In this document: positions 6,954 through 29,525 of the stretch, piece after piece
Layout of the letters: each line of letters starts with the position of its first letter
Numbering within the stretch: the first letter of the stretch is position 1
Source of the DNA: Bacteroidia bacterium
Lineage (GTDB): Bacteria; Bacteroidota; Bacteroidia; B-17B0; Aurantibacillaceae
Reading direction: 5' to 3'
Length of the DNA: 38,122 nucleotides
NCBI GenBank assembly: GCA_025362575.1
Contig: JANYIQ010000251.1
Span: 1-38,122 of the forward strand
Position numbers and translations under genes: made by a program
Notes under the pieces: model-generated
What the model saw: the letters and a program-made list of their open reading frames with translations, nothing else
The model's database searches: none
Told to the model about the DNA's origin: nothing

Positions 6954-9623
6954 CTATTTGATCAAAGTAACATGACCTGTTAATTCTTTTGATTTACCGT
7001 ACACGTCCATAAGTCGGATCCTCCAAACGTAAGTTCCATCTTGTAAAACTTTAGAGCTCTTACCTTGGTATTTACCGTCCCATCCATTGTGCATGTCTTT
7101 AGTGCGGAATAATTTCTCGCCCCAGCGATCATATATTTCCATTTCGTAATCGGTGATACCAAAACCCTTTGGTGAGAAAACATCGTTTATTCCATCTCCA
7201 TTAGGCGTAAAGGCATCCGGAACATATAAACCAAAATCTTCAAGCACCTCAATGTTTTTGATAATAGTATCAATGCAACCAAAATCACTTTTCACAACTA
7301 AGGCAATACTGAATACACCGAATTGAGGATAAGTGAAATTCGGATTTTGTTCGTTAGAAGTAAAACTTCCATCAGCCATGAAATACCAGTTCCATGAAGT
7401 TACATTTGCCGCATAAGTGGCATCGGTAAACTGAATTGGCTCTTCGAATATTGGTTTTATTGGAGCGTAATTAAAATCGGCAACCGGTAAAGGATAGGCA
7501 GTGGCGCTTGCGGTGGCAAGATTTGTACATCCATTCGCGTCTTTTAAAGTCGCGGTGATCACAAAGTCGCCGGCGGTACTGTAACAATAATTTATGCTTG
7601 ATCCGCTCAATGTTACACCATCCCCTAATTGCCACTGACAATTTTGAGTACCTGAAGAACTCATTACGGTAAATGAAGTACACAATGGAACGCAAGCTTT
7701 ATTGTTGCCCATTGAAATTGCAACCAGTGGTAAAGGATTAACAATTGCAGTTATAACGGCCGACGCAGTACAGCCAATGGCATCACTTACAAAAACCGTA
7801 TAGGTTCCGCTGAAATTTGTTGTTGTTGCTGTTAGGTTCGGATTCTGTGAGCCGGATGCAAAACCGTTCGGTCCTAACCAGGAATAGCTGACTCCGCCAT
7901 TCGCAAAGAAGCTCAAGGTGCTGTTAATACAAACCGGACTGTTGGTTGAAAGTGTTGGAGTAGGCGGAGGGTTAACAATTACATTTGCTGAACCGGTGTT
8001 CTTACAAGAAGTAGCGGCAGTAACCGTAACATTGTAAACACCCGTCATTGCAGCTGTAGCAGCAGCTATGGTTGGATTCTGTAAATTAGAAATGAAACCG
8101 TTTGGACCTGACCATAAATAACTAACACCACCATTGGCACTGAGATTAATGGTTTGATTGATACAGATCGAAGATCCGGTTGCTGCAACAATTGGCAAGG
8201 AATTAACTGTAACAGGAGTTGTTGTTGTTGTTGAACAACCATTAGCATCGGTAACCGTTAGTGTATATGTTCCGTTATTTGCCATTGCCGAAACAGGAAT
8301 ATTAGGATTTGCATTACTCGAATTAAAACTGCTTGGGCCAACCCATAAATAAGTTATGCCACCGCTTCCTGTAAAATTAATTGGAGCCCCAATACAAACC
8401 GGACTGTTACTTGTAATGTTTGGAGTTGGAGATGGGGTAATGAAAACTGTTCCTGTGCCTTGAGAGATGCAGGCTGCTCCTGTACTTCCAAGAACTGTAT
8501 AAACTGTTGTTGCTAACGGTGAGTAGCTTGCTGTTGTTCCGCTTGTACCTCCTGTAACCCAAGTGTAGGTTGTGGCCCCGGATGCAGTGAGGGTTCCGGT
8601 TGCGCCCTGGCAAATACTTGTAGATGTTACCGCTAAAGTTGGACCCGGTACAACTGATACCGTTAATGCACTTGTATAAGTACTGTTTGCGCCTGCACAT
8701 GCAGAAACATTCATGGTAGCTGTATAATTTGATGTAGCACTCGGGCAAACCGTTGCAGTTAAACCTGTACCAACAATTCCTGTTGGGCCGGTCCATGTTA
8801 CCGTATAAGTTGGGGCACCCGTTGGAGCAAAACGCCAGGCTTCGTTTACCGCTGTCCATGCTGTAGGAAAATTTCGTAAAGGTGGAGAAGTTGCAAGTGT
8901 TGCGTTCACATTTTGAATTCCAATGATTCCTCTTCCTGAATTCCAGCCTGCACAACTTGTACTATTTTGAATGAACACATCAATGTAGTTTGTTGTTTCG
9001 TGCAACACTAATTGAAAAGTGGAATTTGGAATACCTGTACATGAACCCGGGTTATCATACATTGGAATGTTATTCCATGAAACCACGAAGGATCTGCATG
9101 GCGCTACACCATAAGATGCAAAATAAATATTTCCGCTTGAGGTTGGATCGATATCGCGGAATGCAGCGCAAATTGTATTACCAGGCATATTAACCAGACT
9201 CGGGATGGCTGCAGTGATCTGCCAGTTATTTCCACCGAGTGTGCTGGGTACTGCAAGACTAAAAGTAAGCTGACCATTTGAACTCACTTTGCACTGATTA
9301 AATGTGTTTCCGTAATAGCAAAACGGAAAACCAATGTTGATTGTGGAACTCCAGATATCATCCTGATTTGCTAATATTGAAGTACCGGTTGAAAACGAAA
9401 AAGGCGAGTAGGCTGTAGGGCCAACAGAATAAGTTGTTGTTAAGTTTACGGGTACCACACTTGCTGTTAAGTTGGCGCACTGACCATTACAAATGACAGT
9501 TGTTGGTCCGGTTGAAACCTGAGAATTAATAGTTGGACAAAAGGGAGCTGATTGACCGAATGAAGTATTTAAGGATAGACAAAAAAGGGCAAGGCAAACA
9601 AGAAAAGTAAATGATCTTTTCAT
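6954..9623 (-). CDS. T9SS type B sorted adhesin with nidogen-like N-terminus (889 aa)
   Basis: I chose the ATG at 9623 because it gives a compact signal peptide, MKRSFTFLVCLALFCLSLNT, before SFGQ. An upstream in-frame ATG at 9668 would add 15 residues. The N-terminal 250 residues look nidogen-like: GFPFCYYGNTFNQCKVSSNG, AAFRDIDPTSSGNIYF, SFVVSWNNIPMY, FQLVLHETTNYIDVFIQN. Repeats of Ig/SprB type follow (TYTWVTGGTSG, ITYLWVGPSSF, SYLWSGPNGF, SYSWLGPNGF). Next are a PKD-like domain (NCQWQLGDGVTLSG), a second one (PVADFNYAPIKPI, SWNWYFMADG) and the type B sorting domain (VPDAFTPNGDGINDVF, YDRWGEKLF, ELTGHVTLIK). It appears to be the first gene of a four-gene cargo operon. The 177 bp upstream hold no gene; no convincing promoter was found. 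Likely exported and surface-attached through T9SS. Confidence 0.9.
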   Translation of the reverse strand: MKRSFTFLVCLALFCLSLNTSFGQSAPFCPTINSQVSTGPTTVICNGQCANLTASVVPVNLTTTYSVGPTAYSPFSFSTGTSILANQDDIWSSTINIGFPFCYYGNTFNQCKVSSNGQLTFSLAVPSTLGGNNWQITAAIPSLVNMPGNTICAAFRDIDPTSSGNIYFASYGVAPCRSFVVSWNNIPMYDNPGSCTGIPNSTFQLVLHETTNYIDVFIQNSTSCAGWNSGRGIIGIQNVNATLATSPPLRNFPTAWTAVNEAWRFAPTGAPTYTVTWTGPTGIVGTGLTATVCPSATSNYTATMNVSACAGANSTYTSALTVSVVPGPTLAVTSTSICQGATGTLTASGATTYTWVTGGTSGTTASYSPLATTVYTVLGSTGAACISQGTGTVFITPSPTPNITSNSPVCIGAPINFTGSGGITYLWVGPSSFNSSNANPNIPVSAMANNGTYTLTVTDANGCSTTTTTPVTVNSLPIVAATGSSICINQTINLSANGGVSYLWSGPNGFISNLQNPTIAAATAAMTGVYNVTVTAATSCKNTGSANVIVNPPPTPTLSTNSPVCINSTLSFFANGGVSYSWLGPNGFASGSQNPNLTATTTNFSGTYTVFVSDAIGCTASAVITAIVNPLPLVAISMGNNKACVPLCTSFTVMSSSGTQNCQWQLGDGVTLSGSSINYCYSTAGDFVITATLKDANGCTNLATASATAYPLPVADFNYAPIKPIFEEPIQFTDATYAANVTSWNWYFMADGSFTSNEQNPNFTYPQFGVFSIALVVKSDFGCIDTIIKNIEVLEDFGLYVPDAFTPNGDGINDVFSPKGFGITDYEMEIYDRWGEKLFRTKDMHNGWDGKYQGKSSKVLQDGTYVWRIRLMDVYGKSKELTGHVTLIK

Positions 9624-9800
9624 CAGGAAAGCAAGGTTAGAAAATTGCATTGAAAATGAGAACTTCATTCTATAAAGTTACTTACAAAATAGACGAAAAG
9701 CCTGAAATTGGATAATTACTAATGTATTCCTACTCATTAAGTATCAAAGCCCACTCAAAGAATAAATCTAAAAAATCTAAAACTGTTAAAACGATGATTT

Positions 9801-10448
9801 TTAGTCCCTTTCGTCGGTGATCTGGTCAGGCTTAAAGTTTTTGGTATCGAAGGTGAAAACGGTTTCGGCGATCTCAGCATTTGGTTTAAAAGATTTGACC
9901 TCAAAAACATCCATTCCACCGTCTTTTAAAAGACTTTTCATCTGAACCACCTGCTTTTTTATTTTGTCAACGTATAATTTCATGGTGTGAAATTTTTTCT
10001 TTTCGGGTTTTACAGTTGGGTAAAGATCGATCACGTGACAAACAATTGTTCCTAATTTTTCTTCCTTATCGTATTTGTATTTGTAGCCGGTTTCGTAAAG
10101 TGTGAAAATTTTTGAGGGATTCTGATCTTCATTATTCGGATCAAAATTTTTGATGGTTACCTCACCTGCGTCTTTGTTGTGATTCCATATTGTTTTGCCA
10201 TCGCAAACAATTGTATTTCCGGGAATTTCCAAACGAAATTTCTGACCTTTTAACTGAATTTTCCAATCCTGTTTCTCGGTCTGCTTTTTATCTTTGTTGT
10301 ACGATGCTCTTACAACGCTTGCTGTTATTGATTTGTAGGCTTTCGTGGTTTTGCTCAGATCATCTAGAATAGTTTTTGCTTTAGGGTCTTCCTGTGCAAA
10401 AAAATTCAGGACAAAAAAATTGAGAAGTATGAATAGGAAATTTTTCAT
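9801..10448 (-). CDS. LolA-like outer-membrane lipoprotein carrier family protein
   Basis: This 215-residue protein has a signal peptide (MKNFLFILLNFFVLNFFAQ) and the LolA-like layout. An N-terminal helix (AKTILDDLSKTTKAYKSITA) leads into antiparallel strands with family-typical phrases: GQKFRLEIPGNTIVCDGKTI, WNHNKDAGEVTIKNFD, TIVCHVIDLYP, KLYVDKIKKQVVQMKSL. The related E. coli protein carries lipoproteins from the inner to the outer membrane through the periplasm. In Bacteroidota there are several paralogues whose cargo is not proven, so I leave the symbol blank. The gene stands alone between rplY and the adhesin operon, on the same strand as both. A weak promoter-like element (TACTTTAG, minus strand, near 10487-10494) lies about 40 bp upstream. 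Confidence 0.8.
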   Translation of the reverse strand: MKNFLFILLNFFVLNFFAQEDPKAKTILDDLSKTTKAYKSITASVVRASYNKDKKQTEKQDWKIQLKGQKFRLEIPGNTIVCDGKTIWNHNKDAGEVTIKNFDPNNEDQNPSKIFTLYETGYKYKYDKEEKLGTIVCHVIDLYPTVKPEKKKFHTMKLYVDKIKKQVVQMKSLLKDGGMDVFEVKSFKPNAEIAETVFTFDTKNFKPDQITDERD

Positions 10449-12372: not shown

Positions 12373-12456
12373 GCCCCGATGGCGGAATTGGTAGACGCGC
12401 TGGTCTCAAACACCAGTAACTTCACTGTTGTGCCGGTTCGAGCCCGGCTCGGGGTA
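12373..12456 (+). tRNA. tRNA-Leu (anticodon CAA)
   Basis: A class II tRNA of 84 bases up to the discriminator. The acceptor arm is GCCCCGA with TCGGGGT (the first pair is G-T). The D arm contains GCGGAATTGGTAGACGCGC. The anticodon arm is CTGGT-CTCAAAC-ACCAG, giving anticodon CAA, which reads UUG. A long variable arm and the T arm GCCGG-TTCGAGC-CCGGC follow. CCA is not encoded directly after the discriminator A. Its 3' half overlaps, in antisense, the end of the recombinase gene, so it is the target site of the mobile element. Confidence 0.95.
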
Positions 12457-12460
12457 CGCA
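12422..12460. other. Probable left attachment junction of the integrated element
   Basis: Host tRNA sequence changes to element sequence around the end of the acceptor stem, and the recombinase frame crosses this point. Integration at a tRNA 3' end normally recreates the tRNA and leaves a direct repeat at the other end. I could not find a second copy of the T arm and acceptor sequence in the window, so the exact core is unknown. Confidence 0.55.
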
Positions 12461-14020
12461 GTCGGGGAAGTCAAAGAAAAACTTTGACTCCCCGATTTTT
12501 TTTGCCTCCCAATCGCCCGTCAATAGGGCGAAGTAGCGAATAACCGAATTTATTTTTGTGGTTCGACACTGGTCTTTTTTCTTATTGTAAAAAATACCCT
12601 CCGGAAACAGCACATTTTGCAACAAGCTTTTTTCCTTAAATGGCGTGAGTCGCCACACTGTCGGGAGTTTGGCGAATAGTCGCATTGCTAAATTCACGCA
12701 TTTTTCAAGGTTCGACACCTCGTTTCCTGACTTCAGCATTTCTAACTCAATTAAGGCTTTTTCGGCTTTGAATTTTGCACTGTATTTATTAAAAAGTTCG
12801 TTATTTATCTCCTCAAGTACCACCCTTTCCTCCAACCTTTCGATCTTATTATCGATTTCAGAAATTTGGCGTTTAAAGGCGGTAAAATTTGCTTCCTTTT
12901 CGCTGTTTACCTTGTTGTAATCCGCAGCCATTTGGTTCGCTATAAGGGCTTCCGTTGCCTTATTTGGGGCAAGGCTAAAGGTTCGCAGGATTTTTTCAAA
13001 AACCCGGTCAATTTCCTTGGCGTTGGTGTTATTTTTACAACCCTTCGTTCCGCACTTATAATACGGCAATTCCTTGGTCAGCACGATATATCCCCTCATG
13101 GGCTTTTTACAACTATCGCAACACATAAACCGCCTTAATGGGGTTGTTTCGCCATCCATATTGCAGGTGTAACCCTTCTTCGCCCCTTTCATCAGTTCGT
13201 TCACTTTTAAGAAAACGTCTTTTGAAATCATCTTCTCATGTTTTCCTTCAACAACCTGCCCTGCCAAACAACTATGAACCATTAATCCGCAGTAAAAAGG
13301 ATTTCTAAAATATTCGCTGAGTCTGTTGTCAGGGCAAATCAAACCCAAAGTTTTTAATCGGTTACTAATTTCAACAAGCGTTAAATTTTCACTTGCTTTC
13401 CACATGAAAGCTTTTTTTATCAGTTTCCCTTTTTCATTAATTACAATTTTACTTTCTCCGTTTACTTTTATTATATCGTACCCAAAGGGTTGTCGTCCGC
13501 ACCAAAACCCATTCAAAAGGGCTTGCTTAGTTCCCATGATGGTTCTTTCCTTTCGCACTTGATTATCGTAATGCGAAAAAATAAATTGAACGTTTTGTTG
13601 AAAGTCGCCAATTGAGCTTCGTGGATCAACAGGAGTTGTTGCTGCTTGCAAATAAACATTAGTGAGTTTGAGTTGCTCTTTTATATAAATGGCATTTGCT
13701 CCGGTTCTCGAAAACCTATCGATGTGACTAATGATGATGTAATTAATTTTCTCCTTACTCTTTTTTACATATAAAAGCATTCGATTAAATTCTTTTCGCT
13801 CATCGGTTTTTGCACTTTCATACGTTCCTCCGAAATAACCCAAAATCGCATGACTATTTTTTATAGCAAACTCGGTGCAAAGTTTTCTTTGCGTTTCTAA
13901 ACTATGACCTTCTTCTTGTTCCTTACTTGAAACCCTTGTGTAAATCACACAATTGTTTGTTTTGCTAAGCGCATCAACTTTGCCTTTTGCAAACTGATCA
14001 AATAAAACTAATTTTTCCAT
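12422..14020 (-). CDS. Large serine recombinase (integrase of the element)
   Basis: This 532-residue protein catalyses site-specific integration and excision through a serine nucleophile. The N-terminal resolvase domain has CVIYTRVSSKEQEEGHSLETQ, with Ser31 as probable nucleophile, and IIISHIDRFSRTG. A recombinase domain (GFWCGRQPFGYDI, LSEYFRNPFYCGLMVH) follows. A zinc ribbon has paired cysteines (FMCCDSCKKPMRGY, YYKCGTKGCKN), then come a coiled coil (EIDNKIERLEERVVLEEINN) and a C-terminal tail. The final residues, VPRAGLEPAQQ, are the antisense translation of the tRNA acceptor and T arm, so the tail is created by the host site. The start is one base from the stop of the 80-residue upstream gene (TAATG overlap), suggesting coupling. 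A hairpin near its 3' end could also affect its transcript. Confidence 0.93.
   Translation of the reverse strand: MEKLVLFDQFAKGKVDALSKTNNCVIYTRVSSKEQEEGHSLETQRKLCTEFAIKNSHAILGYFGGTYESAKTDERKEFNRMLLYVKKSKEKINYIIISHIDRFSRTGANAIYIKEQLKLTNVYLQAATTPVDPRSSIGDFQQNVQFIFSHYDNQVRKERTIMGTKQALLNGFWCGRQPFGYDIIKVNGESKIVINEKGKLIKKAFMWKASENLTLVEISNRLKTLGLICPDNRLSEYFRNPFYCGLMVHSCLAGQVVEGKHEKMISKDVFLKVNELMKGAKKGYTCNMDGETTPLRRFMCCDSCKKPMRGYIVLTKELPYYKCGTKGCKNNTNAKEIDRVFEKILRTFSLAPNKATEALIANQMAADYNKVNSEKEANFTAFKRQISEIDNKIERLEERVVLEEINNELFNKYSAKFKAEKALIELEMLKSGNEVSNLEKCVNLAMRLFAKLPTVWRLTPFKEKSLLQNVLFPEGIFYNKKKDQCRTTKINSVIRYFALLTGDWEAKKIGESKFFFDFPDCVPRAGLEPAQQ
12462..12503 (+). terminator. Hairpin terminator after tRNA-Leu, inside the recombinase 3' end
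   Basis: TCGGGGAAGTCAAAG (one bulged A) pairs with CTTTGACTCCCCGA around a short A-rich loop and is followed by eight Ts. It sits 6 bp after the tRNA. On the opposite strand it codes for the recombinase residues between KKIGESKFF and FPDC. It probably ends the tRNA transcript and was carried in by the element. Confidence 0.8.
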
Positions 14021-14564: not shown

Positions 14565-14597
14565 CAAAAAAAGCCCATGCGATCTGCATGGGCTTTT
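14565..14597 (-). terminator. Terminator of the glycosyltransferase/radical-SAM operon
   Basis: Read on the minus strand, AGCCCATGC pairs perfectly with GCATGGGCT around the loop AGATC and is followed by TTTTTTTG. It lies 20 bp after the stop of the WG-repeat gene. The plus-strand side also has a short T run, so it may work in both directions. Confidence 0.85.
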
Positions 14598-14617: not shown

Positions 14618-15316
14618 CTAAATATTGCCAACTAATTTTCCCGATTCATTTATTAATGCTTTTGTTCCATTATCGTTTGTAACTAAACTAACACCATTAT
14701 AAAAGGGTTCAACAGAATGAAAGCGTTGAGAATATAAACCAACTCCATTTTTATCAATATGAAACCAACCAGTTAAATCTTTTGCAATAGCGTAGCCTTT
14801 ATGAAAAATACCCAAGTCCTCAAATCTTTTATTATTAAGGTCTGCTCCTCTATTATCAATGTGTTTCCAACCATCCGTTCCTTTTACACAAGCATACCCA
14901 TCCTTATAATCACCGGCATAAAAGTAGTTTTCACTATAAATTCTTTTTCCAAACGGATCAATATGAAAGTAGTTATTATTGAAATCACGAACAGAACATT
15001 TGTCTTCCTGATAATTTCCAATCCATACGTAAGTTTCCTTACACAACCTGAGTCCCTTATCATCAATATGAAACCACCCTTCATCTGTAATTACAGCCGC
15101 CTTATTAAAATAGAATCCGAAGGTTCTCTTGTAGCGTTCTTTGTATAACGCTTCACCATTGATATTAATGTGATACCAACCGTCTTTATCCTGTACAGGA
15201 GCAAATCCGGGAGTGTGAAATTTTAATGCGTTAATAAATGTTTTATCAAACACTTTGTTCCCTTGGAAATTAAAGAATGTCCCATTTTCTGATAATTTAA
15301 TTTCTTGCCAGTTCAT
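14618..15316 (-). CDS. WG-repeat protein (232 aa)
   Basis: About five tandem repeats of some 36 residues have the core W-(Y/F/K)-H-I-(D/N)-x-x-G followed by LYxxRY/F. The cores are WYHININGEALYKERY, WFHIDDKGLRLCKETY, YFHIDPFGKRIYSENY, WKHIDNRGADLNNKRF and WFHIDKNGVGLYSQRF. This matches the WG beta-repeat family, thought to form a beta structure for binding. There is no signal peptide, so it should be cytoplasmic. It begins 2 bp after the histidine phosphatase and ends an operon with a terminator. The repeat unit suggests a binding or scaffold role for the other products of the operon. The partner is unknown. Confidence 0.85.
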   Translation of the reverse strand: MNWQEIKLSENGTFFNFQGNKVFDKTFINALKFHTPGFAPVQDKDGWYHININGEALYKERYKRTFGFYFNKAAVITDEGWFHIDDKGLRLCKETYVWIGNYQEDKCSVRDFNNNYFHIDPFGKRIYSENYFYAGDYKDGYACVKGTDGWKHIDNRGADLNNKRFEDLGIFHKGYAIAKDLTGWFHIDKNGVGLYSQRFHSVEPFYNGVSLVTNDNGTKALINESGKLVGNI

Positions 15317-15318
15317 AT

Positions 15319-15894
15319 TTATTCAACTTTTAAAATTATTCCTGATAAATATTTCACCCAATTCTCCTTCGTATAAACAACTTTATTTAAACAATAGTGA
15401 TAAAAGGCGATTAACGAATCATGTGTAATAAAAATGGTCAGTCCATCTTCTATTGTATTTTGTTTGATGAACTCCGTCATTTTTGTTTCGAAGCCCTGCG
15501 GTGTCGGTACACCGGGAATAGCCTCGCCAAGCATGAATCTTCGGTACATCTCATCAAAAGTATGTTTTAGGAAAAATTCCCCTGCTAACTTGTCGTCAGC
15601 AATATGTAGTCCCGGATCACCCAAAGCCTTGGTAGTATGAAACGAGAGTTCCTTTTCATAACCTTCTTTTAAATAGTGGGCAGTTTGCACACACCTTGCA
15701 ACAGGGCTTGTGTAAATGCGATTGATCCTATACTGTTTTAACTCTCGTCCGAAATTTATTGAATTGTGGATGCCTTTTTCATTGAGCAAAATTTCATTCC
15801 CAAACGATCCAACAGGAATTTTCTCCCGATCTCCATGTCTAATGATTAACGCCAATTTAGAGTTATTCGAGTGTTTCTTTATTTCTTCAATCAT
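15319..15894 (-). CDS. Histidine phosphatase family protein
   Basis: The 191 residues have the phosphoglycerate-mutase-like layout. The catalytic RHG is at residues 19-21 (LALIIRHGDREKIPVG), the second Arg is in IYTSPVARCVQTAHYL, and the second catalytic His is in TIFITHDSLIAFYHY. The family forms a phosphohistidine intermediate and acts on very different phosphorylated small molecules or proteins. The substrate cannot be read here. The ATG overlaps the stop of the glycosyltransferase/radical-SAM gene (ATGA), showing tight coupling. In this operon a sugar-phosphate or phosphopeptide substrate is plausible but unproven. Confidence 0.85.
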   Translation of the reverse strand: MIEEIKKHSNNSKLALIIRHGDREKIPVGSFGNEILLNEKGIHNSINFGRELKQYRINRIYTSPVARCVQTAHYLKEGYEKELSFHTTKALGDPGLHIADDKLAGEFFLKHTFDEMYRRFMLGEAIPGVPTPQGFETKMTEFIKQNTIEDGLTIFITHDSLIAFYHYCLNKVVYTKENWVKYLSGIILKVE

Positions 15895-18194
15895 GGTTTA
15901 CGCATATTACAGGTTTTACAAAGGGGTTGATTTTTATAGTTATTTACAAGGTTTTGATAATTGCTACCGGAGATAATTTCTTGGAGTGTTTGATTTTGAA
16001 TGTTTCCAAAATCTCCTAATTTATCTCGCTCTTTATCAGGCGCACAGCACGGAGATATTTTTCCGGTGGCAGAAATCCATATTTCCTTTTTTAAGAATGG
16101 GCAACCATAACTTTCAGGCACTTCCTTTTTCTCCGTTTCCACAAGAGTATAAATGTTCTCAAGCAAAACTTTTTCTCCATTTGGTCTTCGGTACTTATTC
16201 GCTGCATTGTAAGCCTCTTCAACGTAGGTATTCCATTTATTTATACTTGAGGAATCTACCTTCATAGATAGTGTTTTTATCTCATCAAAGTGTGCCCACA
16301 AATGATGTCCTTTCACACGATCAACATCAAGGTAAGCAGCTAGTTTTATAATTTCTGCCAACTCATGCATATTATTTTGCATGAAAGTTAATTGTAAGGT
16401 TACCCGACAGTAATTACCTCCGCTTTTGAAATATTGATTTCTGTATGTGACAAACTGTTTAACATTATCTACCGCATTTTCAAAATCAATTCCCACCATC
16501 ACTTCTTCGGATGTTTCTGCTGTTGATCCGTTCCACGATATTTTTACATCGCTCGTTTGTGGTACAATAATTTTAGCCCATTCAACAACAAGTTTTTTAG
16601 GGAATGTTCCATTGGTTGTAAGGTTAATTTTTATTTTATTTTCTTTTGCTAAATCATAGATGCGCTCAATCCCCTTATATAAAAGAGGTTCACCCATAGT
16701 TGAGGGGATAATTTCTCTTACTCCCATTTCTTTTGCTTGGGCAAATATTTTATCCAACCATTCAACGGGCATTCTTCTTCGTTTCACTCCTGTTTCTTTA
16801 TATAGGGTATCAATGTATTTACTAAATTGGCTATGCTCTTCACACATGGTACAACTTAAATTGCAATCTTCCGGATTAGTGTCTATGGTAATTCTCCAAA
16901 GGGAGTCCTCTGATTTTGACTTTTGTAATCCTTCATAAATATTTTGTAACTCTTTGCAATGCTCTTTAATTTCAGGAACGCTGCCATTTTCCGAAAATAA
17001 ATAACCACGCTTTCCAAAATCAGCCATCTTGCTTTTATTTTCAATTGCCCATTGCATTTGCTCTGACAAACTGTTTGATTTTCGATGTTCGAATAATAAA
17101 CCATTTATTCTATGTTTAACATATTCAGCCATTCCACCATAGTTTGCAGTTATAACTGGAATATGGCAAGCCTGCGCCTCGTGAATTACCAATGGTGAGT
17201 TTTCGCTCCAAATAGATGGAACTACAATACAATCCACTTGCGAGAATACTTCATCGGCAAGATTTTTATTTACATACTCGCCCATAAATTCAATAGGAAG
17301 CCCCAAAGCCTTTGCTTTTTCAACTAATTCTTTCGTAGCTCGCTGATCTTTCCATCCCCATATTTTTAAAGACGTTTTTCCTTTCAATTTTAAAAAAGCT
17401 TCGATTAATTGATTAACTCCTTTTGCCGGGATATGGGTTCCAATGTACCCGAACACAAAAGTGTCAGATGTTTCTCTATTTTCTGTAGGCGTTAAATATT
17501 GTAGTGGGAAACCATAGTCTAAATAATGAATTTTATTTTCTTTCACTCCAAACTCTTCAACATATCGCCTCTTCAAATATTTTGATGGAGCAATAAATAA
17601 ATCCACTTTATTGGTAATGTCTTTTGTTTCTCGCATTCTACTCCCAATCCAATTACTCCAATGGGAAATATCTGTTTCTTTGTTTTCTTCCTGCCCGGTG
17701 AAATATGCATTATAACAGCTTACCGCACATTTTTTATTTTCTTGTTTGTCGCACAACTGTAAATGATCCGGATTTCCAAAATTTCTTTGTAGAAACTGAC
17801 CACGAGGACACATTAGCCAAAAATCGTGTAGAGTGAATACAATTGGAATGTTTTTATTTTTTAATACGTCAACAAATCCTGTTGAGAGATGATTCAAATG
17901 ACCAATATGTGCAACGTTCGGTTTGATTTCATTTAACAGATTGGAAAAAATTAAATCTAATTCCCGATGCCGAAAGCCATCTTTTCCTTGAGCCATATTA
18001 GCCAAGTAGATAACAAGATTTTCATTTATTTGTTCTTTGCGAATTGTAAAATCCGGCAGGTATGGATTCTCTTCCCTTGTAAAAACAAATACTTGATTAC
18101 TCTTTGATAACTCTTCGCAGATGGATTGACTATAAACTTCCGATCCTGCATTGTAGAAGGGCGGATACCCATGTATGATTTTAATTATTTTCAT
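15891..18194 (-). CDS. Glycosyltransferase family 4 / radical SAM-SPASM fusion protein (767 aa)
   Basis: The N-terminal half (about 1-415) is a GT4-type glycosyltransferase: HGYPPFYNAGSEVYSQSICE, the Cys-bearing LHDFWLMCPRGQFLQR, FVFGYIGTHIPAKGVNQL, and the nucleotide-sugar-site region VVPSIWSENSPLVIHEAQAC with GGMAEYV. The C-terminal half (about 430-767) is a radical SAM enzyme with CNLSCTMC at 444-451 (CX3CX2C, for the 4Fe-4S cluster) and REIIPSTMGEPLLYKGIERI. It ends in a SPASM-like cysteine set: YGCPF, ISPCCAPDKERD, LCKTCNMRKP. SPASM radical SAM enzymes often modify peptides or carbohydrates. A single-chain fusion to a glycosyltransferase is unusual. Gene spacing is 1 bp to the 100-residue gene upstream and a 4-base overlap downstream. 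Substrate unknown. I judged the frame intact, so the fusion is real and not an artefact of a lost stop, but sequencing error cannot be excluded. Confidence 0.87.
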   Translation of the reverse strand: MKIIKIIHGYPPFYNAGSEVYSQSICEELSKSNQVFVFTREENPYLPDFTIRKEQINENLVIYLANMAQGKDGFRHRELDLIFSNLLNEIKPNVAHIGHLNHLSTGFVDVLKNKNIPIVFTLHDFWLMCPRGQFLQRNFGNPDHLQLCDKQENKKCAVSCYNAYFTGQEENKETDISHWSNWIGSRMRETKDITNKVDLFIAPSKYLKRRYVEEFGVKENKIHYLDYGFPLQYLTPTENRETSDTFVFGYIGTHIPAKGVNQLIEAFLKLKGKTSLKIWGWKDQRATKELVEKAKALGLPIEFMGEYVNKNLADEVFSQVDCIVVPSIWSENSPLVIHEAQACHIPVITANYGGMAEYVKHRINGLLFEHRKSNSLSEQMQWAIENKSKMADFGKRGYLFSENGSVPEIKEHCKELQNIYEGLQKSKSEDSLWRITIDTNPEDCNLSCTMCEEHSQFSKYIDTLYKETGVKRRRMPVEWLDKIFAQAKEMGVREIIPSTMGEPLLYKGIERIYDLAKENKIKINLTTNGTFPKKLVVEWAKIIVPQTSDVKISWNGSTAETSEEVMVGIDFENAVDNVKQFVTYRNQYFKSGGNYCRVTLQLTFMQNNMHELAEIIKLAAYLDVDRVKGHHLWAHFDEIKTLSMKVDSSSINKWNTYVEEAYNAANKYRRPNGEKVLLENIYTLVETEKKEVPESYGCPFLKKEIWISATGKISPCCAPDKERDKLGDFGNIQNQTLQEIISGSNYQNLVNNYKNQPLCKTCNMRKP

Positions 18195-18195
18195 T

Positions 18196-18498
18196 TCAAT
18201 TCAGTATTTGCAGGTAATAATTTTGCTTCTTGATAATATGCGTAAGCACGTTTGAAAAAAAAGCACTTTTTAATTTACCATTCTTTATAATTATGCAGAG
18301 GTTAGGTAATTCCATTTTTTCAGGAAAAGGGAGTTTGTGTTTTTTAAGCCATTGATATCTCGCAATAAGAACCGTGTTTTCTTTCTGTGGTTTTTTCTTT
18401 GAAGCAGCAATAACAACCTTGATCGCATGCGGATCGGGGATTACTTTAGCATCTTTACATTTCCCATTGGGACTCATTGAAATTTTATTCGCTTCCAT
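18196..18498 (-). CDS. Unknown 100-residue protein, first gene of the GT/radical-SAM operon
   Basis: The protein is basic, with an N-terminal segment MSPNGKCKDAKVIPDPHAI, a strand-rich middle (KVVIAASKKKPQKENTVLIA) and the C-terminal LPNLCIIIKNGKLKSAFFSN. It has two cysteines, no signal peptide and no membrane segment. It stops 1 bp before the fusion gene and is probably the first gene of the transcript. Its size and position next to a SPASM radical SAM enzyme make it a possible peptide substrate or a small carrier/recognition protein. However, it lacks the repetitive or Gly-rich core typical of RiPP precursors. I do not recognise a family. Confidence 0.65.
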   Translation of the reverse strand: MEANKISMSPNGKCKDAKVIPDPHAIKVVIAASKKKPQKENTVLIARYQWLKKHKLPFPEKMELPNLCIIIKNGKLKSAFFSNVLTHIIKKQNYYLQILN

Positions 18499-18641
18499 TT
18501 TTAAGTTTCTTATTGGTACGTGTTTCTATTTTCACATTTCATGCCGCAATATTTTTGAACTGCTATCTAAATGTATATCAACACATTAGTTAATAATTAA
18601 GAAGACAATTACTTCTATTTAGATATTTGTATCTTTATCAA
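18499..18641. promoter_or_regulatory. Divergent promoter region between the GT/radical-SAM operon and the AAA+ gene
   Basis: This AT-rich 143-bp region separates divergent genes. A 9-bp inverted repeat, TATCTAAAT (near 18564) and ATTTAGATA (near 18618), flanks its centre. GATATTTG at 18622-18629 is close to the TAnnTTTG consensus for the AAA+ gene. I found no sigma54 -24/-12 (GG-N10-GC) element. Confidence 0.5.
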
Positions 18642-19700
18642 ATGAATAAAATTTTTTTAGATGAAATAAAAGATCAACACCCTTTAAGAAAGGAGGCGTT
18701 GCAAAGGCTTTATCACTTTATGTCGAATCCTGGAAATTTTTCTGTGCTCGTAATTGGAGAAAGAGGAACCGGGAAATCAAGGTGGATAAAACAAATAAGC
18801 GAAATTTTAAAAGAAGAAAGAGTTTTGCATACAGATTATTATGTTGAAGCATCTTGCGCCTCTTTTAATAATGATAATGCTGAAGCTGACATTTTCGGTT
18901 ATGAGCCACATGCCTTTACCAATGCCAATCCAAAAGGACACGATGGGCTTTTAAAACAGGCGAACAATGGGCTTTTATTTCTTGATGAAGTTCATCACTT
19001 AGAGGATCGAGTTAAGTCAAAACTGCTCACAGCTTTACAGACCGTTGGAAGCGGGAAAGAAAAAGGGAAGTTTTCCTTTAGAAAAATGATGGGCGATAAA
19101 ATCTACTACGTTGCCGTAAGACCGATTTTTGGAAGTAATAGAGCTATTTCCGAATTGAAAAATAACACCCTGCTTCCTGATTTTTACGACAGGATTGCTC
19201 AACTTGTGATCAAATTGCCGTCAATTTCAGAAACAAGGGATACAGTAAAATCAGATTTTATATTGGTGTGGCGAGGGATGCAATTCGAAAAGTCAAAAGG
19301 ATACGAAAGAATAAAAGCACCAATGGAGAAAGGGTTTTATAAATGGTTGAGTCAATTGCCACTTGACGGCAACTTTAGAGACTTACAATCAATATCAATC
19401 TTGTGGATGACGTATTGGAAAACGGTTTTTGACCCTAAATCTTCCAATGACCTCGATGAAAAAGCAATCTTCAATTTAGTAAAAATGGATTTTGAAAAAT
19501 ACAATTTAACAACGAAGATAGAAATGCCGCAGACGTTTGACATTTCACAGCCATTTGATTTATACAACAGAAAGCTCATGAAGAATTATGCAGATGTGAT
19601 TTCGTCATTACCCGAGTATGAAAAAATAAAGCAGGGCGACATGGTCTTTAGTACCGGGAAAACAAAAAAAACAATTGATCGCTGGTCAAAATTGGTCTGA
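18642..19700 (+). CDS. Sigma54-activator-like AAA+ ATPase with altered GAFTGA loop (352 aa)
   Basis: I prefer the ATG at 18642 to an in-frame TTG at 18627, because a TAnnTTTG-like element overlaps the latter. Walker A is GERGTGKS at 39-46, and Walker B is GLLFLDEVHHLEDRVKSKLL, with Asp115-Glu116. The arginine-finger region DFYDRIAQLVIKLPSISE resembles that of bacterial enhancer-binding proteins. The loop that contacts sigma54, normally GAFTGA, reads HAFTNA (residues 90-95). There is no N-terminal receiver or other sensor domain. The C-terminus (GKTKKTIDRWSKLV) may be a short HTH. It is divergent from the GT/radical-SAM operon and is a candidate regulator or energy-driven partner of it. Classic sigma54 activation seems doubtful given the loop. 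Confidence 0.8.
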   Translation: MNKIFLDEIKDQHPLRKEALQRLYHFMSNPGNFSVLVIGERGTGKSRWIKQISEILKEERVLHTDYYVEASCASFNNDNAEADIFGYEPHAFTNANPKGHDGLLKQANNGLLFLDEVHHLEDRVKSKLLTALQTVGSGKEKGKFSFRKMMGDKIYYVAVRPIFGSNRAISELKNNTLLPDFYDRIAQLVIKLPSISETRDTVKSDFILVWRGMQFEKSKGYERIKAPMEKGFYKWLSQLPLDGNFRDLQSISILWMTYWKTVFDPKSSNDLDEKAIFNLVKMDFEKYNLTTKIEMPQTFDISQPFDLYNRKLMKNYADVISSLPEYEKIKQGDMVFSTGKTKKTIDRWSKLV

Positions 19701-20047: not shown

Positions 20048-21316
20048 ATGGCAATTCAAAATGTAAATACAAATTTTGACAGTATAAAAGTAAGCCCTGA
20101 ATGGTGTTTTAAAAATGTTCGGTCAATTGAACAATGGACACACGGTTATCACAGATATCCTGCAAAGTTTCTCCCAAACTTGGTGAAAAAAATTATCGAG
20201 GATTATACACAAAAGGATGATTTGGTAGCGGATTTTTTTGCAGGGTGCGGAACAACTTTAGTTGAGGCAAAAGTTCACGGAAGGAAATCAATAGGAGTAG
20301 ATATTAATCCTGTTGCGGAATTAATAACAAAAGCAAAGATAAATCCTATTGATCCAAAAAAACTTGAAAGACGATTTAAATTTATACTAAACACCTTTGA
20401 TGATTTTAATGCAAAGGAATACTCAAAGATTGATGTGCATGACAGAATTGATTATTGGTTTTCCAAAAAAAATAAAGCCAAAATCGCATTTCTCTATGAA
20501 AAAATATTAACCACCCGTGATAAACCACTCAAGGAATTTTTCCTTGTTGCGTTATCTCACATCTTAAAAAATTGTTCAATGTGGTTACAGTCAAGTACTA
20601 AACCACAAATTGATCCTGACAAAGAACCCACAGATCCATTTGTGTCTTTTAAGGCTCACACAAAGATGATGATTAAAAGAAATAGTGAATTTTTTAATCA
20701 GCTTTCAAAAGATGATTTTCTAAAAACTGAATGTGAAATCCGGTTGGAAGATGCACGCAGGACTTCAATTCGATCAAATTCAGTTGGGGCGATAATTACT
20801 TCACCGCCTTATGTTACCTCATATGAGTATGCTGATATACATCAATTAACAGCGTATTGGTATGAATACATTACCGACCTACAGGGATTCAGAAAAAATT
20901 TCATAGGAACATTTTATTCCCTAAATCAGGAAACTGAAAGTGACTCCAAACTCGCACAAGAAATTATAGCCAAACTTTTGAAAAAAGATAAACGGACAGC
21001 AAAAGAAGTGGCAAATTATTTTAAAGATATGCAAGCGGTAGCTGAAGAAATGCATCGTGTCCTAAGAAAAGACGGTCACGCTTGCTTGGTTATTGGCAAT
21101 ACTACATTTAAAAACGTGAAAGTAAAATCAGCGGAAGTTTTTGCTGAAATACTTGAGGCATTGGGGTTTGAGTTGGTTGAGATCATTAAAAGAAGCATTC
21201 CTCATAAATTAATTCCAACAATCCGGGATAAAAAATCCGGTAGATTTTCCAAATTAAAAAACAAGGACAGCAAATTAGTATATCCTGAAGAATACATACT
21301 GATTGCAAAAAAATAA
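20048..21316 (+). CDS. Site-specific DNA methyltransferase (N4-cytosine or N6-adenine)
   Basis: Motif I, the AdoMet-binding DFFAGCGTTLVEAKVHG, begins at Asp62 and is followed by the acidic strand end SIGVDINP. Catalytic motif IV is SPPY at 252-255 (IITSPPYVTSYEYADIHQL). A helical segment of about 170 residues with many basic residues separates them. The later part (LRKDGHACLVIGNTTFKN) fits the remaining strands of the fold. SPPY is most typical of N4-cytosine enzymes, so the modified base cannot be fixed. The N-terminal WTHGYHRYPAKFLPNLVKK is a phrase common in this subgroup. It follows the XRE gene by 7 bp and precedes the dual-GHKL gene by 3 bp. It may provide self-marking for the module downstream, independent of the type I HsdM in the same operon. 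Confidence 0.88.
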   Translation: MAIQNVNTNFDSIKVSPEWCFKNVRSIEQWTHGYHRYPAKFLPNLVKKIIEDYTQKDDLVADFFAGCGTTLVEAKVHGRKSIGVDINPVAELITKAKINPIDPKKLERRFKFILNTFDDFNAKEYSKIDVHDRIDYWFSKKNKAKIAFLYEKILTTRDKPLKEFFLVALSHILKNCSMWLQSSTKPQIDPDKEPTDPFVSFKAHTKMMIKRNSEFFNQLSKDDFLKTECEIRLEDARRTSIRSNSVGAIITSPPYVTSYEYADIHQLTAYWYEYITDLQGFRKNFIGTFYSLNQETESDSKLAQEIIAKLLKKDKRTAKEVANYFKDMQAVAEEMHRVLRKDGHACLVIGNTTFKNVKVKSAEVFAEILEALGFELVEIIKRSIPHKLIPTIRDKKSGRFSKLKNKDSKLVYPEEYILIAKK

Positions 21317-21319
21317 AGT

Positions 21320-23533
21320 ATGGCAGTAATTAAAAAAGATAGTCAACCATTTGAGCCTTATGCGAGGCTTATGAATATTATTGGCGACCAATTAATCACC
21401 AACAAAATTGTTGGGGTTATAGAAGTTGTCAAAAACTGTTATGATGCCGATGCGGAAAATGTGCAGGTTCGGTTTTTTAATGTTCAAAATCGTGGAAAAG
21501 ACTACTTAGCAGAAAATGAAAAACCCTACATTGAAATTGAGGATGATGGAGATGGAATGACACTTGACATTATACAAAATGTTTGGTTGAGACCTGCAAC
21601 TCCACATAAGTTAGATAAGAAAAACAAAAAGAATAACATTACAAATAAAGGCAGAATAATACAAGGAGAGAAAGGAGTTGGGAGATTTGCTATTCATAAA
21701 CTCGGAGAAAAAATAGAGGTATTTACAAAGGCAGAAAATAACGATGAAATAAAATTAGTTTTAGATTTTACGGAATTTAACCCTGAAAAAATTAACCTTT
21801 TTAATCAGCCTGATGACTTTAAACTTTTAAGTGAAGTAAAAAATGAGTGGTTTGTTCAAAGTCCACCTGAAGAAATAAAAAAGCCAAAAGGGACACTAAT
21901 AAGAATTTTTAATTTGAGGGAGGGTTGGAAGGAAGAGGATTTTAGACAATTAAGAATGGCTACAAATAAGTTACTCCCTCCTTATGACCCGAATTCAAAG
22001 GAGTTTAATATTAAAATCATTTCGGATTTCAATATTGACATTTACAATGATCGTGCAGAAATTCCTAAAGAAGGAACGGTTACTTTTCAAGATGTAATCG
22101 AAAAAGCTCATTTTAAAATGAAGGGCGAAATTAGTGAGAAAGGTATTTTGAAGTTTGAATATGAATGCACTTTGACAAGTAGAAAAATAAAAAGAGAAAT
22201 AAATTTACTGGACGAAGAATCACAAAGGAAATTTCAGTATGATCTGTATTCATTCATTAAGTATTTATCTAAGACTGACAAACCTTCATGTGGAGAGTTT
22301 AAATTCTCATTATACTCATACGACCTTACCGATAATCTATCCATTACAAAAATTGACAAGGAATTTATAAGATCAAATTTTATTTATGTTTATCGTGATG
22401 GTGTTCGTGTTTATCCTTTTGGAGAAAAAGAAATGGATTGGTTGGAATTAGATAAGCTCCGTTCAGTTGTTAAAGCAGGAAGATTTCCAAGTTACAATGA
22501 TTTGTTAGGGTTTGTGTATATCAGCCAAGCAGAAAATGCAATTTTAAAAGATGCCACGAATAGGCAGGGGATGATGAATATAGATGGAGCGTATGATGAT
22601 TTCAGATATTTAATGCTCGGAGCCACAGAAATTCTAAACACAGAATCAAAAATTGATAAGGAAAAAAAGAAGGTATCAAAAAATAAATCCTACTCTGATT
22701 CTAACTCTGTAGTTAGAAAATCGTTTGATTCTTTGAAGGGGAAATTGGAAAAAATTAATGATTTAGATACACTCAAAACCGCTAACCACTTTTTAGAAAC
22801 TCTTGACAAGCATACTGAGTTGATGAAAGAGCGCATGGAAACTGTTGAGGACTTGGCAGGTTTAGGAATGGCGGTTGAAAAAGCATCTCATGATGCTTTG
22901 ATGTTGTTGACAAAAATGCGAGGCAATATAAAGGACTTTAAGGTAAAAGCGAAGAATAAGGATTACAAAAATGAAGAGTTAGTGAGCCTTTTGAATGAGT
23001 TGGATGAAAACCTAAACTTCATTTATGACGAAATGCAAGTTATACAACCGCTTTTTAAAATTCAACGCAAAGCCATTCAAAATGTGAGTATCTATGAAAG
23101 CATTGAAAAGGTAGAAAAATATTTCAGACGAGAACTGGAAAACAAAATCAGCGTGAAACTTATTAAGGACAAGGATGTAATTGTGAAAACGAATAATGGT
23201 TTAATATTACAAGTTCTGATAAACCTTCTTGACAATGCAATTTATTGGGCAAGTAAAAAAGGAAGTAAGAAAACAGAAATTGCTTTCCAAATAAACACCA
23301 AAGACAATACTCTAATTGTTGCGGACAATGGAACTGGCATCAGGGAAGATGTTGAACCATTAATATTCAACGAATTTTTCTCACTTAAATCAGATGGACG
23401 TGGATTGGGACTTTACATCGTTAAAGAAATTCTTATGCGGATTAACGCAGAAATTTCCGTTATACAAGAAGATAAAAAGAAAATTCTTCCGGGAGCAAAT
23501 TTCCTCATCAAATTTAATAACGAACAATCATAA
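21320..23533 (+). CDS. Dual GHKL ATPase: MORC/Hsp90-like N-terminus plus histidine-kinase-like C-terminus (737 aa)
   Basis: Two ATP-binding Bergerat folds are visible. The first has VIEVVKNCYDADA (N box, Glu35/Asn39), IEDDGDGM (76-79) and GEKGVGRFAIHKLGE (116-130), typical of Hsp90/MutL/MORC-like ATPases. The middle (about 150-460) is a transducer-like region. A coiled-coil, DHp-like helix pair follows, with AVEKASHDALMLL carrying a possible phospho-accepting His524 followed by Asp. The second Bergerat fold is the histidine-kinase type: NLLDNAIYWA (Asn639), VADNGTGI (Asp669), GRGLGLYIVKEI. No sensor or membrane domain is present, so the first ATPase may take that place. The next gene, 1 bp away, encodes a receiver domain, its likely partner. 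Published work links MORC-like ATPases to bacterial restriction systems; kinase activity here is inferred. Confidence 0.85.
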   Translation: MAVIKKDSQPFEPYARLMNIIGDQLITNKIVGVIEVVKNCYDADAENVQVRFFNVQNRGKDYLAENEKPYIEIEDDGDGMTLDIIQNVWLRPATPHKLDKKNKKNNITNKGRIIQGEKGVGRFAIHKLGEKIEVFTKAENNDEIKLVLDFTEFNPEKINLFNQPDDFKLLSEVKNEWFVQSPPEEIKKPKGTLIRIFNLREGWKEEDFRQLRMATNKLLPPYDPNSKEFNIKIISDFNIDIYNDRAEIPKEGTVTFQDVIEKAHFKMKGEISEKGILKFEYECTLTSRKIKREINLLDEESQRKFQYDLYSFIKYLSKTDKPSCGEFKFSLYSYDLTDNLSITKIDKEFIRSNFIYVYRDGVRVYPFGEKEMDWLELDKLRSVVKAGRFPSYNDLLGFVYISQAENAILKDATNRQGMMNIDGAYDDFRYLMLGATEILNTESKIDKEKKKVSKNKSYSDSNSVVRKSFDSLKGKLEKINDLDTLKTANHFLETLDKHTELMKERMETVEDLAGLGMAVEKASHDALMLLTKMRGNIKDFKVKAKNKDYKNEELVSLLNELDENLNFIYDEMQVIQPLFKIQRKAIQNVSIYESIEKVEKYFRRELENKISVKLIKDKDVIVKTNNGLILQVLINLLDNAIYWASKKGSKKTEIAFQINTKDNTLIVADNGTGIREDVEPLIFNEFFSLKSDGRGLGLYIVKEILMRINAEISVIQEDKKKILPGANFLIKFNNEQS

Positions 23534-23534
23534 T

Positions 23535-24707
23535 ATGAAAGGCGTAATACTCTTTGCGGATGATCATGTCTTTCATAATGATAGAACAGAAAATGGTCTT
23601 TTCAAGAAATTTAACTTGGAAAGTGAGTTTCCAATCCTCCCGATTGATAATTTGTCTGTTTTGGAGAAAACAGTTTCTTCTGTTTCTACATATAGGGCAA
23701 TAATCCTGGACTGGAATTTTAAAAAGGATAGCGGTGAGGAAGGAGTTAAAATTCCTGATGAAACTCCTTTTGAATTTTTGAAAAACAACAAAATATATTC
23801 TCTTGTCTATGTCTATTCGCAAGCAGACATTGAAAAAGAGAAAAAGGATGAATTAGAAGCGCTGTACCCGAAAAAGATTTTTTTTGAAACAAAAAATGCA
23901 GCAAACAGTTTAGATGTTGAATACAAGAAAATTGTAGATGGGATTAAAAAATTTGAAACAGATAATCAACATTTAATAACTCCCTTTCTTTGGAGTCAAG
24001 CTATCAATAATTCCGTACAAACCATTTTTGATGAATTGGAAAATGCAGACCCTAATTGGATCAAAGAAATTTACACAAGCGCAGTAACTGACGGTGCTGA
24101 ACCAAATGCTGAGGTGATTGGGGTTTTTCAGAACCTTTTAAATGAATCAATAGTTCAAAATAGCGACCTCACAAAATCATTAGCTGCAACCGCAGCCCTG
24201 AACGATGTTCCCATCGCGAATAAAGAAGAATCCTTAGCGAAACTTTACAATAGAATTTACTACACTCAATTACTAAACGATGCTCCTATTATGACTGGAG
24301 ATATTTTCAAATTTAGTGACGATGAATTTGCAATTTTGATTACTCCTGAATGTGATGTGAATGCAAAAAAAGAAACAACTTTAGAATTCCTCAAATTTAC
24401 AAAGACTGCATCTGCCGCTTTCATTACAAAAAAGAAAAAAGACGATGCGATTTTTAATAATGGAGTTCAGAGCCGACACATCCTACCTTCTTTCCCATTC
24501 GAGGCGAATGTTTATAATTTATCAGCATTCATCGATTTTGAAACTTCCTTCATTGTAAAACCGAAAAGTGAATTTGAAAATAAAAGAAGTGAATTTAAAC
24601 TCAATTCCCCATATATATTTCAGCTGCGACAAAGATATTTAGCTTATATAGGAAGAGTTGGTGTTCCTGCAATACCGCCAAGCCTAAAAACGTTCAACCT
24701 GAAGTAA
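23535..24707 (+). CDS. Receiver-domain protein with unknown C-terminal domain (390 aa)
   Basis: I chose the ATG at 23535, directly after the kinase-like gene, because the longer frame overlaps that gene. The first 120 residues have the full receiver signature: ILFADDH (acid pair Asp9/Asp10), IILDWNF (phospho-acceptor Asp59), VYVYSQ (Ser95) and PKKIFF (Lys113). The remaining 270 residues are not a DNA-binding domain that I recognise. They include helical segments (FLWSQAINNSVQTIFDELE), a conserved-looking DEFAILITPECDVNAKKE and the C-terminal LRQRYLAYIGRVGVPAIPP. The domain could be an effector or adaptor controlled by phosphorylation from the upstream kinase-like protein. It lies 16 bp before the GGCT/HEPN gene. 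How the signal passes on is unknown. Confidence 0.82.
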   Translation: MKGVILFADDHVFHNDRTENGLFKKFNLESEFPILPIDNLSVLEKTVSSVSTYRAIILDWNFKKDSGEEGVKIPDETPFEFLKNNKIYSLVYVYSQADIEKEKKDELEALYPKKIFFETKNAANSLDVEYKKIVDGIKKFETDNQHLITPFLWSQAINNSVQTIFDELENADPNWIKEIYTSAVTDGAEPNAEVIGVFQNLLNESIVQNSDLTKSLAATAALNDVPIANKEESLAKLYNRIYYTQLLNDAPIMTGDIFKFSDDEFAILITPECDVNAKKETTLEFLKFTKTASAAFITKKKKDDAIFNNGVQSRHILPSFPFEANVYNLSAFIDFETSFIVKPKSEFENKRSEFKLNSPYIFQLRQRYLAYIGRVGVPAIPPSLKTFNLK

Positions 24708-24723
24708 AGTCCCCACTCTGCCA

Positions 24724-26694: not shown

Positions 26695-26722
26695 ATTAAT
26701 GAGTTTTAATAAAATATTATAA

Positions 26723-28291: not shown

Positions 28292-28293
28292 CA

Positions 28294-29523: not shown

Positions 29524-29525
29524 TT

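Follow-up and report, generated by a model that had tools for sequence, protein, structure and literature searches.

A gene coding for a fusion of a glycosyltransferase (GT) with a radical SAM (rSAM) enzyme has been described as UC3 (WD0613) of the Undecim Cluster of Wolbachia phage WO, the eleven genes WD0611-WD0621 of the WO Eukaryotic Association Module, whose functions were predicted from annotation (PMC9203015). Two further descriptions bear on the locus presented here: RelE genes have been published beside viperins (PMC10865869), and the CARF class of activators, to which the regulator discussed below is related, was reported beside restriction-modification (R-M) systems by Makarova et al. 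2014 (PMC4012209). Beyond the Undecim papers, no description of GT-rSAM-WG operons was found in the searchable literature, many subscription papers being outside its reach, and within the same limits the Bacteroidota operon, its regulator, its exchangeable slot and its link to viperins are undescribed. The sequence-only reading of this locus had known of no published system with this composition, which stands for the whole operon in that literature and falls for the fusion, already published as UC3/WD0613 (PMC9203015).

The window, i.e. the whole stretch of DNA that was analysed, comprises 38,122 nucleotides of contig JANYIQ010000251.1 from a Bacteroidia bacterium. The compact four-gene operon recognised in it earlier was recovered in full, with all four ORFs verified on the minus strand, gaps of 1, -4 and 2 bp between them and an intrinsic terminator behind them (Table 1). 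Overlooked at that time was a divergent gene encoding a sigma54-type AAA activator, which by sequence comparison also belongs to the unit, the latter thus consisting of five genes: the activator, the 100-aa slot protein, the fusion, the phosphatase and the WG protein.

Table 1 Features of the locus, with positions in the window
Feature	Position	Strand	Basis or remark
tRNA-Leu	12373-12457	opposite to recombinase	overlapped by the recombinase 3' end
Serine recombinase	12422-14020	-	PF00239 E 8.7e-20, PF07508 E 5.8e-9
Intrinsic terminator of the operon	14569-14597	-	12-pair stem with 6 G-C pairs, then T-rich tail
WG-repeat protein, 232 aa	14618-15316	-	repeats about 34 residues apart
Histidine phosphatase, 191 aa	15319-15894	-	PF00300 (His_Phos_1) E 2.2e-9
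GT4-radical SAM-SPASM fusion, 767 aa	15891-18194	-	Pfam/NCBIfam, homologues; homologue of WO UC3/WD0613
Slot protein, 100 aa	18196-18498	-	family c12
Probable -24-like element CGGCATG	18540-18546	-	some 42 bp upstream of the slot protein gene
Sigma54-type AAA+ activator, 357 aa, divergent	18627-19700	+	PADLOC RtcR_PspF1 E 1.8e-48

The proposed joining of a glycosyltransferase and a radical SAM enzyme in one protein was confirmed by Pfam, which finds Glycos_transf_1 (GT4; E 9.6e-30), Radical_SAM (E 2.8e-12) and SPASM (E 1.5e-11) within it. Catalytic residues are intact in the window and invariant across 81 homologues; these are the EX7E motif of the GT (E331/E339), the rSAM cysteines C444/C448/C451 and the SPASM cysteines C698/C716/C717/C759/C762. 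Identity to UC3 is 49.4% over residues 1-767, i.e. over the full length. Scanning of genomes gave 80 loci that encode a full-length or near-full-length fusion, 55-89% identical to the window protein in Bacteroidota and about 45-60% identical in Ignavibacteriota, Pseudomonadota, Thermodesulfobacteriota, Myxococcota, Planctomycetota, Verrucomicrobiota, Cyanobacteriota, Electryoneota and one Asgard MAG; at least nine phyla possess full-length homologues, and further copies are found on plasmids of Arsenophonus and in phage WO of Wolbachia. Within its phylum the fusion is rare, being matched at E 1e-30 in 3 of the 395 sampled genomes, the window's own included and one of them matching in the GT part only. 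Viral contigs gave no match when scanned with the window protein alone and two loci when scanned with the alignment. On a Heimdallarchaeota MAG contig (L082, 10001-12325) the fusion lies in broken frames together with an epimerase gene, possibly as a contamination. Identical fusion genes are present in MAGs of different assigned organisms (L039/L040 and L046/L047, the latter two apparently being one and the same contig), which reflects either recent transfer or a binning error.

Downstream gene content was counted in the 41 Bacteroidota-type loci whose sequence extends far enough behind the fusion, the near-duplicate pairs L039/L040 and L046/L047 among them making the counts non-independent. 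In this neighbourhood search with the fusion as query, which had been put forward as a check, a WG-repeat gene accompanies the fusion in all 41 loci and exactly one phosphatase in 39, either a histidine phosphatase (17) or a nucleotidyltransferase-tyrosine phosphatase (22) and never both. An O-methyltransferase is encoded in 24 of the loci and is missing from the window operon, and the order fusion-phosphatase-(methyltransferase)-WG is conserved throughout. The operon of a genome of the same class (G198), consisting of the fusion, a histidine phosphatase, an O-methyltransferase and a WG protein, has one extra gene. The assignments made earlier for the last two genes of the window operon held as well: the phosphatase carries both RHG and THD in addition to its His_Phos_1 match, and the WG match, which in the window protein (19.9 bits) stays under the curated Pfam cut-off of 25.6 bits, becomes significant in the orthologue of locus L013 (38.7 bits). 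A single protein of about 555 aa unites the methyltransferase with the WG part in Proteobacteria, Rickettsiales and WO, and the WG protein of the window shows homology to a portion of this fusion of other phyla and phage WO.

The activator contains an AAA+ sigma54-interaction domain (PF00158 E 2.7e-24; PDLC01994 E 1.8e-48) and covers positions 163-418 of the 468 positions of the RtcR_PspF1 profile only, the N-terminal CARF domain being absent. Orthologues in L018, L031 and L050 reach into the CARF half, and full-length orthologues match RtcR_PspF1 CARF-AAA-HTH regulators; judging from these matches, the window activator is derived from an RtcR-like CARF-AAA-HTH regulator. Its orthologues occupy the same divergent position in about 30 fusion loci. 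The activator accompanies the small upstream protein in 27 of the 31 loci with that protein and is present in 0 of the 16 lacking it (Fisher p 3e-9, with kinship of the loci ignored). In about 17 of 30 loci the small gene is preceded by a TGGCA[CT]-type element, which agrees with expectation for the -24 part of a sigma54 promoter (background 0.19 per kb per strand). Taken alone, the copy in the window is non-significant (shuffle p 0.175). The divergent activator is, from its conserved placement, the probable switch of the unit.

The small protein behind this putative promoter belongs to a family, c12, with orthologues in six further loci (44-62% identity) and none in 147 other Bacteroidota genomes. 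Its structure model (pLDDT 77) probably represents an alpha/beta fold with a conserved, disordered N-terminal tail, and no convincing fold match was obtained (best Foldseek E 0.57, best VIA Z 5.1). In the closest relative, L014, the fusion is 89%, the activator 80%, the phosphatase 77% and the WG protein 72% identical to those of the window; here the place between activator and fusion is taken by another protein, c8, and the DNA similarity breaks off on either side of the slot. To account for c12 on the fusion tree, at least four changes are required. As read from these alignments, the small gene upstream of the fusion is an exchangeable slot. The best structural neighbours of the c8 model include many RelE-family toxins (HigB2, RelE, YoeB, Cami1; Z 3.5-5.3), with all scores (HigB2 5.3, RelE 4.4, Cami1 4.1) under the trusted level of the tool. 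Homology between c8 and c12 is unsupported by profile comparison (hhalign probability 3.7%). The slot proteins of L025 and L052 match DUF4258 weakly, below the trusted threshold.

Slots of other loci hold short, disordered peptides of four kinds, three in Bacteroidota, (a) NHxADIKNPN...NRGKQLNPNQ, (b) STTGKPSGxGRxNNPPKPKK and (c) AASRIQS...GSFAxRAQSAAAK, and one in Proteobacteria, (d) DNRANQLNPxHPAYxxSRG, the motif NRxxQLNPN being shared by (a) and (d). Of 27 fusion genomes, 11 have peptide (a), always as a single copy adjoining the fusion, and it has no strong match in 147 other Bacteroidota genomes; peptide (d) is found once per fusion genome having it and is without a strong match in 184 other genomes of one carrier's class. 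Neither the window nor its genome holds such a peptide, as searched with (a), (b) and a relative's unlinked copy; many sister operons likewise lack a local short peptide, and no conserved one was found in the Rickettsiales/WO loci. In the genome of the closest relative, an unlinked 73-aa relative of peptide (a) lies near an avidin-like ORF (L119, 1965-2186, minus strand).

In Lacinutrix, an unlinked copy of peptide (a) lies in a locus with the order peptide (a), viperin-kinase, c8-like protein. Among nine Bacteroidota viperin loci that were examined, peptide (a) lies beside the viperin in four (L118, L135, L138, L141) and peptide (c) in one (L136), while a c8-like protein directly follows the viperin-kinase in three (L118, L135, L136). 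The c8 proteins of fusion and viperin loci have the signature HFxxxQWDRxIxDxLL in common, and in L034 a stand-alone viperin of 286 aa (9128-9988, plus strand; pVip E 1e-82) is encoded between the c8 and fusion genes. Parts of the slot are hence common to both kinds of loci, as far as sequence comparison can tell. A 5'-nucleotidase-like gene (NT5C) was also seen beside viperin genes in L135 (4502-4915), L136 (2484-2894) and L140 (2859-3266), in the first two immediately 3' of the c8-like protein; the HMM check covers the L135 copy. The fusion itself was considered as a viperin and rejected: its match to the pVip HMM is partial (31.6 bits, E 2.7e-8, versus 235-1020 bits for true viperins) and its rSAM part is a SPASM enzyme. 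An unbiased search in the family of Lacinutrix detected peptide (a) in 7 of 259 genomes, its partner being the fusion in one, a viperin in three and a protein of 213-221 aa in two, with a partial copy beside HtpG in the seventh. The 213-221 aa protein, for which no confident Pfam match was obtained, is directly preceded by peptide (a) in two Flavobacteriaceae genomes (L149, 4167-4295, and L151, 4035-4163, both minus strand; the L151 copy lies beside restriction-type genes) and is a possible third partner system.

That the operon travels on a mobile element had been claimed, and it agrees with a horizontal spread: the unit aligns with that of L014 at 76.6-80.7% DNA identity in unrelated flanks, the alignment not extending beyond the unit. 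This comparison is better evidence for mobility than the recombinase and the tRNA-Leu, which are probably the integration module of the island and not of the operon itself; a second att copy of the tRNA-Leu end was not found within the window. R-M genes adjoin the unit in the window. They are part of a defence-like cluster (20048-32381, plus strand) that encodes a DNA methyltransferase and a complete type I R-M system, together with a relative of BbrUII-type restriction enzymes that contains two GHKL ATPase domains and a protein of 656 aa in which a GGACT/AIG2 domain was recognised.

The exchangeable parts shared with viperin loci, the class of the regulator, the mobile nature of the unit and its requirement for a phosphatase together make a viperin-like, stress-inducible operon that would produce a sugar- or nucleotide-derived inhibitor the best explanation, one that in our judgement has an even chance of being correct. 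Such a product is suggested by the presence of GT4 and rSAM-SPASM in one chain, accompanied by a phosphatase and an optional methyltransferase. We infer the induction, the product, the order of steps and an antiphage effect of the operon as follows. A stress or infection signal would act through the RtcR-type sigma54 activator to switch the operon on; the fusion enzyme would transfer a sugar from an NDP-sugar onto an acceptor and subsequently edit it by radical chemistry, yielding the inhibitor; the phosphatase may trim or convert a phosphorylated intermediate, with the O-methyltransferase as a putative finishing step in other lineages. The WG protein, to judge from its union with the methyltransferase in other phyla, would probably bind substrate or product, and the small slot protein may be an accessory, possibly a RelE-like RNase. 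The viperin-like reading is further favoured by the ties of the CARF class to R-M systems (PMC4012209), since R-M genes adjoin the unit. Also counted in its favour are the gene order conserved in 41 loci, the co-occurrence of the activator with the small protein, the -24-like element, the recurrent slot exchange and, with RelE genes published beside viperins (PMC10865869), the RelE-family neighbours of the c8 model. Against it speak the c12 protein of the window, not seen beside a viperin, and its weak relation to c8; the RelE-like Z scores, which stay under the trusted level; the activator without CARF and the operon without a nucleotide kinase; the SPASM nature of the fusion and its partial pVip match; and the WO/Rickettsiales version, where transporters and amino-acid enzymes but no activator are present, pointing to an exported metabolite. 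The earlier suggestion of a defence function gains from the defence-type regulator, the horizontal spread, the conserved order and the parts common to viperins, all of which are sequence-based. More specifically, we put forward, tentatively and with doubts prevailing, that the unit represents a hitherto undescribed and broadly mobile system for making antiviral small molecules, with a GT-radical-SAM core, which would have spread over at least nine phyla, been captured by WO and have exchangeable accessories in common with viperins, namely short disordered peptides and RelE-like proteins. If true, this would constitute a second radical-SAM route to bacterial antiviral small molecules, provide a defence-type hypothesis for the conserved, highly expressed and unexplained UC3 and next gene of WO, and draw attention to the accessory peptides beside viperins, undescribed in the searchable literature; direct tests are feasible in free-living Bacteroidota carriers, unlike in Wolbachia.

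SPASM domains are common in peptide-modifying enzymes, and the fusion could, in a RiPP-like manner, glycosylate and radically edit a short co-encoded peptide, further tailored by the phosphatase and methyltransferase; in the window the substrate might be the disordered tail of the 100-aa protein. Short hydrophilic peptides encoded immediately before the fusion at many loci, the lack of strong matches to peptide (a) in the 147 other genomes, the single DNRANQLNP peptide per genome, the shared motif and the conserved c12 tail all agree with this. Short peptides as precursors serving the fusion only were initially favoured, and the earlier proposal of peptide modification or a bacteriocin pointed the same way. 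Both were weakened, as peptide (a) also lies beside viperins, which are known to act on nucleotides, as well as next to the unrelated 213-221 aa protein, which argues for a portable accessory rather than a precursor reserved for the fusion; moreover, the window and many sister operons lack such a peptide, and neither a precursor-recognition domain nor a gene for a protease was seen. We regard peptide modification as unlikely, yet as the main rival of the viperin-like reading. Modification of the cell surface or of an exopolysaccharide, as predicted for UC1-UC3 and UC10 of the Undecim Cluster by the authors of PMC9203015, would suit the GT4 domain and the NAD-dependent epimerase whose gene immediately precedes the fusion in Proteobacteria and Rickettsiales. 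In the Bacteroidota operons, however, neither a lipid-carrier enzyme nor a flippase or polymerase was seen, and the CARF-type sigma54 control, the parts common to viperins and the annotation-based nature of those predictions render this improbable. A pathway of RNA modification or repair would fit the RtcR CARF-AAA-HTH class of the activator and the Polbeta-type nucleotidyltransferase-phosphatase of sister operons, but the operon is without an RNA-binding, ligase or cyclase gene and the activator class is also tied to defence systems, so that we consider it very improbable. A chance grouping of unrelated genes, conceivable in a defence-like island with a recombinase and to be expected if homologues never co-occurred elsewhere, has practically no probability left and is refuted by the same genes being found in the same order in 41 loci.

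Compared with known systems, the c8 model of the wider operon family bears a weak resemblance to toxins of the RelE superfamily, with DUF4258-like proteins in other slots and scores below trusted thresholds, whereas c12 gives no RelE-like match among its structural neighbours. Like RtcR/RtcR_PspF1 systems, the window has a divergently placed sigma54 AAA gene with a promoter-like element; it differs in the activator without CARF and in a target operon without rtcA/rtcB. The Undecim Cluster likewise resides on a mobile element and has the fusion (about 49-50% identity), behind which a protein combining WG repeats with O-methyltransferase regions is encoded. The window is not an Undecim Cluster, as its counterparts are UC3 and the WG portion of the protein encoded next and no others: where the cluster has genes for an epimerase, a GlmU-like protein, PhyH, an ABC transporter, threonine aldolase and UDP-glucose dehydrogenase, the window encodes the phosphatase, the slot protein and the sigma54 activator instead. 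From prokaryotic viperins, which convert NTPs to ddh-nucleotides and block phages, the operon differs by the GT4 domain and SPASM of its fusion and by lacking the nucleotide kinase that many viperin loci have, while it resembles them in a radical SAM core enzyme, adjacent nucleotide/phosphate enzymes, a defence setting and, in the wider operon family, the same slot accessories, namely peptides (a) and (c) and the c8 protein.
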